DNA from: a virus
DNA length: 30,975 nucleotides
Virus record (IMG/VR): IMGVR_UViG_3300042504_002803
Span: 1-30,975 of that record
Strand: one strand, 5' to 3'
In this document: piece by piece, positions 14,422 through 23,501 of the stretch
How positions within the stretch are numbered: position 1 is the stretch's first letter
How the letters are laid out: the number at the start of each line of letters is the position of its first letter
Notes under the pieces: generated by a model
What the model saw: the letters and a program-made list of their open reading frames with translations, nothing else
What the model was told of the DNA's origin: nothing
The model's database searches: none
Program-made: the position numbers and the translations under genes

Positions 14422-14646
14422 ATGAAATTAAAAGAATTAAAACAGCTTATAAAAGAAATACATAATTCACAAAACAAATGTGGTTGTGGGTGTAATAAAT
14501 GCGCTATAAAAAGTGATTCTGATTTAATCAATAATTTTGTTGGTGAACAAAGACAATCGATACTAAAAAATAAAAATGCGCCTATAAATAAAAATATTAA
14601 TGAGGTATTATCTCATAATATAAAACAATATAAAAAAGAACAATAA
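14422..14646 (+). CDS. Tiny Cys-cluster protein with capsid-targeting-like leader (74 aa)
   Basis: Leader MKLKELKQLIKE (I-K-E at 10-12) is followed by a compact cysteine cluster CGCGCNKC at residues 20-27, four Cys in eight residues, which could bind a metal ion or cluster. The rest is basic and probably unstructured, with a second site-like I-N-E at 59-61. The leader is almost the same as that of the 351-residue protein at 19376 (MKISQLKQLIKE). Function is unknown; packaging with the other leader-bearing proteins is inferred. It starts one base after the preceding stop. Confidence 0.6.
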   Translation: MKLKELKQLIKEIHNSQNKCGCGCNKCAIKSDSDLINNFVGEQRQSILKNKNAPINKNINEVLSHNIKQYKKEQ

Positions 14647-20492: not shown

Positions 20493-20966
20493 ATGAACAT
20501 ATTTTATATTAATGAAGATCCAATTATTGCTGCTCGTGAATTAGCAGATGATCACATCCGTAAAATGCAAATCGAAAGTGCTCAAATGTGTTGTACTGCA
20601 CATTGGGAAACAGGGGGTGAAGCACCATACAAACGTGCTCACAAAAACCATCCTTCTACAATTTGGGCAAGACAATCTATTCAACATTATATATGGTTAG
20701 TTGAACATGGTTTAGAAATATGTAATGAATTTAAAAAACGTTATGGTAAACGCCATAAAACACAAGACATATTAGAATGGTTACTAATAAATCATCCTAA
20801 TATTCCTGATGTTGATTTTATACCTCCACCAAAATGTATGCCTGTAGAATTTCAAGTAGAAGATACTATTCAATCATATAAAAATTTTTATATTAAAGAT
20901 AAAATAGGTGTTAAAGGATTAGGTTGGAAAAAAATACCTGAAAAAAAACCTTTATGGGTTTTATAA
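20493..20966 (+). CDS. Conserved phage protein of unknown function (157 aa)
   Basis: Compact, His/Trp-rich protein: MNIFYINEDP, a helix AARELADDHIRKMQIESAQ, CCTAHW, AHKNHPSTIWARQS with a long helix, RYGKRHKTQDIL, and PPPKCMPVEF. I recognise this overall pattern as widespread in T4-like and cyanophage genomes, without a known function. The conserved His, Cys and acidic residues would suit a metal site or nuclease, but none is established. Arg is CGT in many positions. Its stop codon overlaps an AATATTTATAAT element and the small-RNA candidate region. Confidence 0.65.
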   Translation: MNIFYINEDPIIAARELADDHIRKMQIESAQMCCTAHWETGGEAPYKRAHKNHPSTIWARQSIQHYIWLVEHGLEICNEFKKRYGKRHKTQDILEWLLINHPNIPDVDFIPPPKCMPVEFQVEDTIQSYKNFYIKDKIGVKGLGWKKIPEKKPLWVL

Positions 20967-20976
20967 TATTTATAAT
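20965..20976 (+). promoter_or_regulatory. Exact AATATTTATAAT element before the structured intergenic region
   Basis: The exact 12-base core overlaps the stop codon of the preceding gene and is placed directly upstream of a hairpin-rich stretch that ends in a terminator, as expected for the promoter of a short transcript. Confidence 0.4.
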
Positions 20977-20978
20977 AT

Positions 20979-21080
20979 ATGACCAACATTGTAGACCGAT
21001 TCATAGCCGGTCGCTCTAATAAGAGATAAAATTATGGTAGCTGTGGCACCCTTAAAAAAGGTGCTACTTTTATTTTGGTT
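20979..21080 (+). ncRNA. Candidate small structured RNA in the 159-base gap
   Basis: The gap between the genes at 20493-20966 and 21126-21764 is visibly richer in G and C than the other gaps. It holds a 5-bp hairpin (GACCG 20994-20998 with CGGTC 21008-21012), a 4-bp hairpin (CTCT 21014-21017 with AGAG 21022-21025), and the terminator at 21043-21075. A promoter-like element lies just upstream. A 16-codon reading frame, ATG 20979 to TAA 21029, covers the first part (MTNIVDRFIAGRSNKR), so a tiny peptide is the alternative. No tRNA cloverleaf could be drawn. No homologous RNA family was recognised. Confidence 0.4.
21043..21075 (+). terminator. Intrinsic terminator
   Basis: GTGGCACC (21043-21050) pairs with GGTGCTAC (21060-21067) as an 8-bp stem containing one G-U pair, with a nine-base A-rich loop, followed by TTTTATTTT. 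It ends the small-RNA candidate or the upstream gene block. The core GCACC/GGTGC is shared with the terminator at 24751. Confidence 0.75.
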
Positions 21081-21125
21081 TATTAAATAAAAAATTATAT
21101 ATTATATTATATAAACTATTAATTT

Positions 21126-21764
21126 ATGACATGTATAGTAGGTTATCTATATAGAGATACTGTTTATCTTGGAGGAGACAGTGCAGGAACGGATGATAGC
21201 TTTTCTCAACAAATAAGAAAAGATCCTAAAGTATTTAGTAATGGTCCTTTTATATTTGGTTTTACTTCTAGTTTTAGAATGGGACAATTATTAATGTCTT
21301 CAAAATTTCAACCATGGGAACAAAACCCAAACCAATCAGATTATGATTATATGGTAACAGATTTTATAGATAGTATTAGAAAACTATTTAAAAAAGGAGG
21401 ATATTTACAAAAAAATTCTGAAGGAGATGAAATTGGAGGAACATTTTTAGTTGGATATAAAGGAGTATTATATTATGTTGAAGATGATTTCCAAATTGGA
21501 ATAATTGAAACTCCTTATCTATCAATAGGATGTGGATGTGATCTAGCATTAGGTTCAATGTATACTAGTGTTGAAACATTAGGAGGAGAACAACAAATCA
21601 GAAAACACCATATAAATGATATTTTAACCAAAGCATTAGAAGCATCATCTAAATTTAGTGCAGGATGTAAACCCCCATTTAATTTTGTATCAATGAGTAA
21701 ACACCACTCAGAAGAAATAGCTAAAAATTTAAAACCTAAACCCATCCCACTTAAAAAGAAATAA
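21126..21764 (+). CDS. Proteasome-beta/HslV-like Ntn hydrolase (212 aa)
   Basis: The N-terminus MTCIVGYLY would expose Thr2 as nucleophile after Met removal. GGDSAG gives D18 and the KVF strand gives K35, close to the Thr1/Asp17/Lys33 triad of proteasome beta subunits. The GPFIFGFTSSFRMGQLL strand-helix and LSIGCGCDLALGSM (about 132-145, the usual GSG-type strand) also fit the Ntn fold. Family members are peptidases of the proteasome/HslV type or related amidohydrolases; no partner ATPase is in the window. The C-terminal 15 residues are Pro/Lys-rich. It begins after the terminator and is one base from the FAD gene. Confidence 0.65.
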   Translation: MTCIVGYLYRDTVYLGGDSAGTDDSFSQQIRKDPKVFSNGPFIFGFTSSFRMGQLLMSSKFQPWEQNPNQSDYDYMVTDFIDSIRKLFKKGGYLQKNSEGDEIGGTFLVGYKGVLYYVEDDFQIGIIETPYLSIGCGCDLALGSMYTSVETLGGEQQIRKHHINDILTKALEASSKFSAGCKPPFNFVSMSKHHSEEIAKNLKPKPIPLKKK

Positions 21765-21765
21765 A

Positions 21766-22293
21766 ATGAAAGAATATAAAAAGAAAATTGTAATTGTAGG
21801 AAGTGGAGTGGCTGGAATAAATGCTGCTACCAAACTAGTAGATAACGGTTATCCTGGTGAACTGATAACAATAATAGATAAGGGAAACGATCCTCATAAT
21901 CGTTTACCTGAAGAGGTAATGACAGGCATGTTAGGTGCTGGTGGATGGTCAGATGGTAAATTAACATACCATACTGCTATCGGAGGTGTACTATCTAAGT
22001 ATTGTGGTGAAGACAAAGCAATGGAATTGATGGATCAAGTTATTAGTAACTTTAGACGTTTCCATCCTAAACCAGAAGAAATATTTTGTTCTGATCCTCA
22101 AGCAGAACCTGATTTTATTAAACCGTATTTTGGATTACGTTTATTTCCTGTATGGCACATAGGAAGTAATTATCTTCACGAGATTGCTAAAGCATGGTAT
22201 CAATATTTGTTAGATAAAGGTGTTAAGTTTGAATGGGAAACTGAAGTTGAGGATATTGATTTTGAAACTGGTGAGATAATATTAAAAGATTAA
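21766..22293 (+). CDS. FAD-dependent oxidoreductase, N-terminal half (175 aa)
   Basis: Carries the Rossmann dinucleotide-binding motif VGSGVAG (G12-x-G14-x-x-G17) and an acidic end of strand 2 (IIDKG, D38). AGGWSDGKLTYH at about 58-69 resembles the GxxSDGKL motif of uncharacterised COG2509-type FAD-dependent dehydrogenases, which are about 450 residues or longer. This ORF stops after EDIDFETGEIILKD, a natural boundary just before the second GxG strand, and the rest is encoded at 22722-23501. The pieces have different reading frames and an unrelated gene between them. Either the two polypeptides assemble, or the enzyme is being lost. The substrate is unknown. Confidence 0.7.
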   Translation: MKEYKKKIVIVGSGVAGINAATKLVDNGYPGELITIIDKGNDPHNRLPEEVMTGMLGAGGWSDGKLTYHTAIGGVLSKYCGEDKAMELMDQVISNFRRFHPKPEEIFCSDPQAEPDFIKPYFGLRLFPVWHIGSNYLHEIAKAWYQYLLDKGVKFEWETEVEDIDFETGEIILKD

Positions 22294-22308
22294 ATACTTA
22301 TAATAAAA
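22293..22308 (+). promoter_or_regulatory. Variant AATACTTATAAT element before the intervening gene
   Basis: AATACTTATAATAAAA differs by one base from the recurrent core and sits seven bases before the ATG of the gene lying between the two oxidoreductase halves, as if the intervening gene came with its own signal. Confidence 0.35.
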
Positions 22309-22315
22309 CATAAAT

Positions 22316-22693
22316 ATGAAAAAATTAAAATTACAACAAATTATTAAAGAAGAAATTAATAATATTTTAAAAGAAAATCTATCTCAAGATATTATTACCT
22401 TTCTTGAAACTAATGGATTCATTAAGATAAGAAATAGAGAAGAATATCTAAAAGTTATTCCTATCTTAACCCAAGCTGGATATTCATTGGTTGGTGATAA
22501 ATTTCCAATAAAAATAACCCCTTTTGATGTTGGTTATGGGCAAAGAAGACAACCTAGAAAAAATAGTATATATTTAACTCGAAATACTATTGACCCCAAA
22601 TATGATAAAAAAAAGTGGTTATGGATAGCTGATGTTTTAGATAAAAATAACATTGATGATAGATTTCCTATTGGAAAACCTTACGCTTTATAA
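22316..22693 (+). CDS. Leader-bearing unknown protein lying inside the split oxidoreductase (125 aa)
   Basis: Leader MKKLKLQQIIKE (I-K-E at 10-12) is followed by further Glu/Ile/Leu helix (INNILKE). The body has mixed helices and strands: DIITFLETNGFIKI, YLKVIPILTQAGY, FPIKITPFDVGYGQRRQ, SIYLTRNTID and KKWLWIADVLD. No motif of an endonuclease, intein or recombinase is visible, so it is not an obvious homing element even though it interrupts an oxidoreductase gene. Base composition and Arg codons (AGA) differ from the flanking halves, supporting a separate origin. Confidence 0.6.
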   Translation: MKKLKLQQIIKEEINNILKENLSQDIITFLETNGFIKIRNREEYLKVIPILTQAGYSLVGDKFPIKITPFDVGYGQRRQPRKNSIYLTRNTIDPKYDKKKWLWIADVLDKNNIDDRFPIGKPYAL

Positions 22694-22721
22694 ATTTTAA
22701 AATATAAAAATTGGATAAAAC

Positions 22722-23501
22722 ATGAGAAAAATTAAATTTGACACTTGCATAGTAGGCACAGGTAAAGCAGGAATAGACTTTTCAGCTAAATTAGCTCAAA
22801 AATATAATTTACCTACCGAGCAAAAGTCGGTCCAAATAGGCTGTAGATTTGAAAGCCCACAAAAATACTTCCAAAAATTAATTGATATTAGCTATGATTT
22901 CAAATTATATCAAAAACCAAATGATAAAGTATCTTTAAGATCATTTTGTACAAATAATAATGCTGCTTATGTAGCTGTTGAAGAAACATATGGGGATATT
23001 AGTTATAATGGTCATGCTAAAAAAGGTGAAGAATTTAGAAATGATATGACTAATTTTGGTATTTTAATGGAGATTAAAGGTATTGAAGATCCATTTGAGT
23101 GGTGTAGAGAAGTAGTAAATAAACTACAGGTGGATGGAAAAGGATTATATTATTCACCAAATAAAACACGTACACCAGGTATAACATCAGAAGGTAATAC
23201 TGTATCAGCATATCAAATGTCTAGTTTAGAAGTATTTTATGAAGTACTAGGACAATATGCTACATACATTGATACTTTTATTGAACAAATGAATGAAGTA
23301 TTTGAGTTTGGTGATGACTTTGGAATCTATATACCGGAGGTAAAATATCTCTCACCAGAGCCTCTTGTAAATTACAACGATTTGTCATTAACTAAATATC
23401 CAAATGTGCACTTTGTTGGAGACGCCCTAAGTGCAAGAGGTATTAGTGTTAGTGGGGCTCATGGTATTTATGTGGCTTCTTCGATTCTTCAAAATTCTTA
23501 A
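22722..23501 (+). CDS. FAD-dependent oxidoreductase, C-terminal half (259 aa)
   Basis: Starts with FDTCIVGTGKAGIDFSAKL, the second nucleotide-binding strand and glycine loop expected in the middle of such an enzyme, and continues through RSFCTNNNAAYVAVEETYGD to the C-terminal FAD-binding segment VHFVGDALSARGISVSGAHG. Nothing equivalent appears in the N-terminal half at 21766, and the two add up to about 434 residues, the size of one complete enzyme. It has its own ATG, but no clear Shine-Dalgarno sequence. Activity would require association with the N-terminal polypeptide. Confidence 0.7.
   Translation: MRKIKFDTCIVGTGKAGIDFSAKLAQKYNLPTEQKSVQIGCRFESPQKYFQKLIDISYDFKLYQKPNDKVSLRSFCTNNNAAYVAVEETYGDISYNGHAKKGEEFRNDMTNFGILMEIKGIEDPFEWCREVVNKLQVDGKGLYYSPNKTRTPGITSEGNTVSAYQMSSLEVFYEVLGQYATYIDTFIEQMNEVFEFGDDFGIYIPEVKYLSPEPLVNYNDLSLTKYPNVHFVGDALSARGISVSGAHGIYVASSILQNS

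Follow-up and report, generated by a model that had tools for sequence, protein, structure and literature searches.

A strongly covarying pseudoknot RNA beside an intrinsic terminator ahead of a dehydrogenase operon in uncultured phages

The locus and the extent of the RNA family

The window, i.e., the whole stretch of DNA that was analysed, comprises positions 1 to 30,975 of the IMG/VR virus record IMGVR_UViG_3300042504_002803. As shown in Table 1, a gap between a pyrimidine-dimer glycosylase-like gene and an HslV-like peptidase gene contains a hairpin, an intrinsic terminator, and two promoter-type sequences. The dehydrogenase gene further downstream (21766-23501) is split by an inserted 125-aa ORF (22316-22693); in the relatives, it is a single ORF of 430-450 aa.

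The first-pass annotation had described this gap as a hairpin-rich candidate for a phage small RNA. The promoter-like sequence at its left end, the first hairpin with its GACCG/CGGTC arms, the terminator stem with a T-rich tail, and a 16-codon frame (20979-21029) were all recovered, and the comparative GC richness was borne out (G+C of 0.34 versus 0.17 just downstream). The second, smaller hairpin exists in the window, but it is not kept in the relatives. The folding of the stretch was better than that of dinucleotide shuffles, with z values of -2.3 and -2.5. An automatic scan overlooked the terminator because its loop is 9 nt long and the scan accepted 8 nt at most.

Table 1. Positions of genes and sequence features around the element in the window
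Feature	Position	Strand	Basis or remark
Upstream gene, 157 aa, pyrimidine-dimer glycosylase-like	20493-20966	+	PF03013 at threshold; phrog_624
AATATTTATAAT, recurrent promoter-like motif, candidate phage late promoter	20965-20976	+	Exact sequence
Conserved unit	20985-21103	+	One family member
Single-stranded leader, conserved, AA-Y-n-T-w-y-A, final A invariant	20985-20993	+	Alignment
Pseudoknot helix S1, 5' arm GACCG	20994-20998	+	Covariation
Pseudoknot loop 1, AUU, with the A and the first U almost invariant	20999-21001	+	Alignment
Pseudoknot helix S2, 5' strand CAUAGC	21002-21007	+	Covariation with 21040-21045
Pseudoknot helix S1, 3' arm CGGUC	21008-21012	+	Covariation
Pseudoknot loop 3, A-rich; variable except first G and last A	21013-21039	+	Alignment
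Small hairpin CTCT/AGAG inside loop 3, non-conserved	21014-21025	+	
Pseudoknot helix S2, 3' strand GCUGUG; final three bases also in terminator stem	21040-21045	+	
Intrinsic terminator, stem followed by T-rich tail	21043-21076	+	
Terminator stem, 5' arm GTGGCACC	21043-21050	+	
Terminator stem, 3' arm GGTGCTAC	21060-21067	+	
Bacteroidota sigma-A-type promoter, TTTG (21074-21077)-N20-TATATT (21098-21103)	21074-21103	+	Consensus of PMC7366714, PMC9723704
HslV-like peptidase gene	21126-21764	+	phrog_1040; separates element from dehydrogenase only in this phage
FAD-dependent dehydrogenase, N-terminal part; element-linked gene	21766-22293	+	phrog_12409 family
FAD-dependent dehydrogenase, C-terminal part	22722-23501	+	Gene split in this phage

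A search for exact copies of the 19-nt first hairpin, GACCGATTCATAGCCGGTC, returned 63 IMG/VR stretches. When their surroundings were aligned, a conserved unit longer than the hairpin alone was observed, with the order of leader AACATATA, hairpin, A-rich linker, ATGgnAGCTGTGGC, terminator of variable sequence, and TTTGG. Relaxed patterns retrieved at least 120 stretches and 12 more from IMG/VR, and a detector requiring full S2 pairing and, around a loop that was defined only loosely, a stem of 5 or more pairs found at least 209 distinct instances in the IMG/VR viral contigs. A covariance model of the core (R1) scored the window at 66 bits. Two candidates were discarded: the pattern GACNGATTCACARYCNGTCG, which retrieved tRNA-like sequences in two contigs and nothing else, and contig L279, in which S1 and the loop occur without a pairing partner and were regarded as a chance match.

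No Rfam model matched at the curated gathering thresholds, and only chance-level matches were obtained at permissive thresholds (best E value, 0.33). The stretch contained no tRNA or tmRNA. Searching 50,697 phage records with the window and two consensus sequences gave no credible match, and one exact pattern had zero matches in 84,980 bacterial and archaeal genomes. Since the genome scan used a single exact pattern, diverged copies in cellular genomes may escape it, as two binned contigs illustrate. A scan of the bacterial and archaeal genome collection for the dehydrogenase returned five contigs, two of which were titled as Flavobacteriaceae/Flavobacteriales MAGs, and a diverged element was present in one MAG so titled (L374) and in an unclassified bacterial bin (L377). 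This suggests that L374 and L377 are phage contigs binned alongside their hosts. The carrier phages, which are uncultured, probably infect Flavobacteria-like bacteria. The element thus represents an RNA family that was previously uncatalogued and is without an Rfam entry.

A pseudoknot with two covarying helices

The decisive feature of the element was absent from the first-pass annotation. The loop of the first hairpin, CAUAGC, pairs with the downstream GCUGUG, and an H-type pseudoknot is formed. Helix S1 may have 5 or 6 pairs; loop 1 has 2-3 nt, there is no loop 2, and the A-rich loop 3 has a median length of 22 nt.

In the first core alignment, whose sequences had partly been found via the motif itself, 99.5% of the cells were paired. 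Two further alignments are less biased. In alignment A2, for which the 157-aa protein served to retrieve the loci (66 matches), S1 and S2 were paired in 99.7% and 99.2% of the cells, respectively. The corresponding values were 99.8% and 96.4% in alignment A5, which mostly contains dehydrogenase-anchored loci, and the pairing fell to 26-29% when A5 was shifted by one column. Changes on both sides of a pair occupied 136 cells of A5 compared to 26.7 in shuffles, and none of the 500 shuffles reached this count; however, shuffles overstate the significance because the sequences are related, and the stronger argument lies in how many and how varied the S2 pair types are. The model-made alignments were fitted to S1 rather than to S2. 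Three S2 pairs were changed on both sides (C-G to U-A; A-U to U-A; G-C to A-U and U-A), and two further pairs varied on one side. The combinations found were CATAGC/GCTGTG, CATAAC/GTTGTG, CATTGC and CATTAC with GTAGTG, TATAGC/GTTGTA, and TATATC/GATGTA; the final S2 pair (C-G) was missing in 22 sequences. The element is a strongly conserved knotted RNA fold, in which both helices covary. Covariation and sequence conservation, whose absence among relatives had been named beforehand as evidence against the proposed RNA, are both found.

A U-G wobble in S2 (U27-G78) was kept in 90 of the 92 alignment rows, suggesting that the RNA of this strand is the folded form; a newly arising G-U was seen at pair 29-76 in 10 cells. 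Covariation alone fits RNA or folded single-stranded DNA, and only one strand is concerned, as might be expected of an origin, a primase site, or a packaging site. Nevertheless, it is very unlikely that the element acts as single-stranded DNA, given that G-U wobbles of this strand are both kept and newly gained, that the element is strictly coupled to an intrinsic terminator, and that it is always located on the coding strand.

The 16-codon open frame of the window had raised the alternative of a translated leader or micro-peptide with attenuation, for which the codon-substitution pattern was the proposed check. S1 varies by pairs rather than by codons, TGA occupies the second S1 codon in 66 of the 209 instances, and there is no conserved ATG. 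A translated leader is therefore extremely improbable.

ToxIN-type (type III) antitoxin RNAs also combine a pseudoknot RNA with a following terminator. This assignment was rejected, since each aligned instance has one pseudoknot without tandem repeats and no ToxN-like gene lies downstream.

Terminator, promoters, and neighbouring genes

A stem of at least 5 pairs through a conserved GGC, followed by a T-rich tail, was found in 114 of the 124 nonredundant instances. The terminator stem includes at least 3 nt of the S2 3' strand in 92 of these 114, all six in 21, and at most 1 in 22. Overlap with S2 is thus present in most members, but the two structures are not strictly exclusive in all of them. 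In the window, three bases are common to S2 and the terminator stem, and the terminator weakens from -10.9 to -5.6 kcal/mol without the shared pairs and the next pair. In L159, where the overlap is full, the loss of the shared pairs changes the terminator from -23.5 to -3.8 kcal/mol. S2 by itself is weak (-5.9 to -7.4 kcal/mol versus -10.9 for the window terminator); hence, to prevail, the pseudoknot needs either a kinetic advantage or some stabilisation.

After or overlapping the terminator, TTTG-N19/20-TAnnTT was present in 73 of the 93 nonredundant regions, compared with approximately 1 expected, and the terminator and this promoter overlap at a fixed spacing. The Bacteroidota housekeeping promoter has TTTG near -33 and TAnnTTTG at -7 (PMC7366714, PMC9723704), and the downstream promoter matches this type. 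No conserved promoter was found across the instances from -75 to -10 upstream of the element. The first-pass annotation had noted an exact promoter-like sequence at the left of this gap. AATATTTATAAT is there, but it is not unique: the window contains four exact copies, all on the + strand and each after one ORF and before the next. The motif thus recurs at gene junctions and is likely to be a general promoter of the phage. A short transcript of approximately 90 nt from AATATTTATAAT is possible in the window phage. In a separate observation, ATATTTATAA occurs on the + strand just before ORFs at window positions 2357, 15755, 20966, 23502, 28312, and 29546. It is a candidate late promoter of the phage group, and, read as its reverse complement, it includes the T4 late consensus TATAAATA.

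An FAD-dependent dehydrogenase or its companion gene lay within 3 kb downstream on the same strand in 206 of the 209 instances, and the other three were all cut by contig ends; in 140 instances, the dehydrogenase was within 200 bp. Conversely, 77 matches, all on the + (gene) strand, were found in 85 dehydrogenase-anchored loci. Some of the loci without a match are truncated, L324 (300-557) has an extra insert of approximately 60 nt in loop 3, and L305 retains the terminator and the promoter without the pseudoknot. Four large records (G008, G010, G014, and G015) have the dehydrogenase gene and no element. The genes downstream of the instances were the dehydrogenase, the glycosylase-like gene, or GIY-YIG-like genes. 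The upstream genes formed 46 clusters, the largest of which may be chained, and gene-specific 3'-UTR control of the upstream gene was rejected on this ground.

Exactly 6 nt separate the upstream stop codon from S1 in 70 of 201 instances, and the majority have a distance of no more than 20 nt; in the window, the spacer measures 27 nt and contains the AATATTTATAAT motif. A stop-codon read-through or frameshift signal was considered because of the frequent 6-nt distance and was rejected, as the downstream frames are unconserved and often meet an immediate TGA.

In five loci (L038, L034, L056, L064, and L070), the 157-aa gene lies between two diverged copies, the first ahead of this gene and the second ahead of the dehydrogenase; their S2 sequences differ, and each is internally matched. 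Elsewhere in the window, many unrelated ORFs, with starts at 14422, 16324, 17734, 18174, 19376, 24088, and 29188, have in common an N-terminal leader of the type M[IK]KLxxLIKE, which we take to resemble the capsid-targeting peptides of T4 internal proteins.

The element lies a few bases past varying stop codons and ahead of one downstream operon, and the recurrent promoter-like motif is close upstream in 3 of 124 instances, including the window. It is therefore a 3'-UTR/operon-boundary element, and a free-standing sRNA gene with an upstream promoter of its own is unlikely as its general state. Of the small RNA originally proposed, the functional structured RNA stands, on the grounds of conservation and covariation, but an independent gene is not supported for the family at large. 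A trans-acting sRNA could still arise by cleavage in the A/U-rich leader past the stop codon or, in this phage, from a start at AATATTTATAAT, giving a pseudoknot-plus-terminator RNA of approximately 90 nt that binds a protein or a target RNA. The position right after stop codons suits known 3'-UTR sRNAs, the promoter-like motif is just upstream in the window, and conservation extends to the unpaired leader, loop 1, and flanking bases. Moreover, large records (99-175 kb) have 1-2 model matches and usually one full copy. However, complete elements were found only at the dehydrogenase operon, the conserved unpaired bases available for target pairing are few, and the upstream motif is confined to the few instances mentioned. 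A trans-acting role is thus considered rather unlikely.

Promoter-early stem-loops (PeSLs) of T4-type phages, described by Arbiol 2010 and Comeau 2014 as cited in PMC4503421, are dense in shuffled regions, and that description mentions no pseudoknot. A PeSL places a host-type promoter and a terminator stem-loop between T4-like phage genes whose neighbours are shuffled by recombination. The boundary architecture of the element resembles this in function: the promoter and the terminator stem-loop are both present, and the diverse upstream genes and partial copies may reflect shuffling by recombination. S1-only partial copies stand directly before another gene at L113:254, L120:3134, L065:4594, L290:956, and L385:659; these are probably recombination scars and a moving gene cassette. 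The second match in record G004 is an S1-only partial copy of this kind, beside unrelated genes. S1-only copies are often near genes with an EEFxRMQKLAGI-like leader. The element differs from PeSLs, as they are described there, in that PeSLs occur in many copies in hyperplastic regions, compared to the one or two matches per record here; it also has a covarying H-type pseudoknot before the terminator, a promoter of the Bacteroidota type, and a link to one operon.

In a PeSL-like boundary, the terminator would shield the host-type promoter from upstream transcription, upstream genes would be exchanged by homologous recombination at the conserved sequence, and the pseudoknot would do no more than aid termination or protect the mRNA 3' end. 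The variety of upstream gene clusters against essentially one downstream operon, the fixed overlap of terminator and promoter, the partial copies beside inserted genes, and L305 are consistent with it. Nevertheless, a recombination site would keep its sequence, whereas here the bases change and the pairs stay, and a plain terminator needs no pseudoknot sharing its stem bases. We regard a boundary of this kind as somewhat improbable.

Possible roles of the element

Because of the shared bases and the operon link, we tentatively favour, with less than even confidence, an operon-boundary RNA in which a pseudoknot-controlled terminator is predicted to set the read-through into the dehydrogenase operon. 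Transcripts of the respective upstream gene would carry the element at their 3' end, and in the window phage its transcription possibly also starts from AATATTTATAAT. In the nascent RNA, S1 and S2 would form first. With an intact pseudoknot, the base of the terminator stem beside the U-tract could not close, and the polymerase would read through into the dehydrogenase operon. If the pseudoknot were absent or disrupted, the terminator would form and the operon would then rely on its own promoter. Disruption might come from a protein, from a ligand, or from a ribosome that terminates at the stop codon immediately before the element. Since the operon has its own promoter past the terminator, read-through may matter little.

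In preQ1-I and fluoride/crcB riboswitches, an H-type pseudoknot shares bases with an intrinsic terminator before a fixed gene. A covarying fold and an association with a same-strand downstream gene are also found here, and S2 and the terminator stem share bases to the variable extent described above. The element differs in having no Rfam match and a promoter that comes after the RNA, with none conserved before it. Only transcripts that read through would carry the RNA ahead of the operon. A putative new phage riboswitch or protein-sensing RNA controlling termination before the dehydrogenase operon, whose pseudoknot would bind either a metabolite or else the FAD-dependent dehydrogenase or the product of this enzyme, is distinctly doubtful.

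The 5' leader of T4 gene 32 mRNA contains an H-type pseudoknot that is bound by gp32; in contrast, the present element lies at a 3' end, beside a terminator and before an unrelated gene. The manA and wcaG RNA motifs, found in T4-like cyanophages and marine metagenomes and proposed to be cis-regulatory, are likewise conserved structured RNAs of T4-like aquatic phages (PMC2864571). They set a precedent for regulatory RNAs of T4-like phages but belong to other families; the element matches no Rfam model, and it is coupled to a terminator where the upstream genes end.

With more than 200 distinct members from uncultured phages, this strongly covarying RNA family, absent from Rfam and tied to a single phage operon, offers a defined and readily testable entry point to RNA-based control in Bacteroidota phages. 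It also indicates that promoter-terminator boundary cassettes of the T4 type can carry structured RNA. If the element is a ligand or protein sensor, it would hint at the role of the phage dehydrogenase. A covariance model of this type could annotate the family in viral metagenomes.
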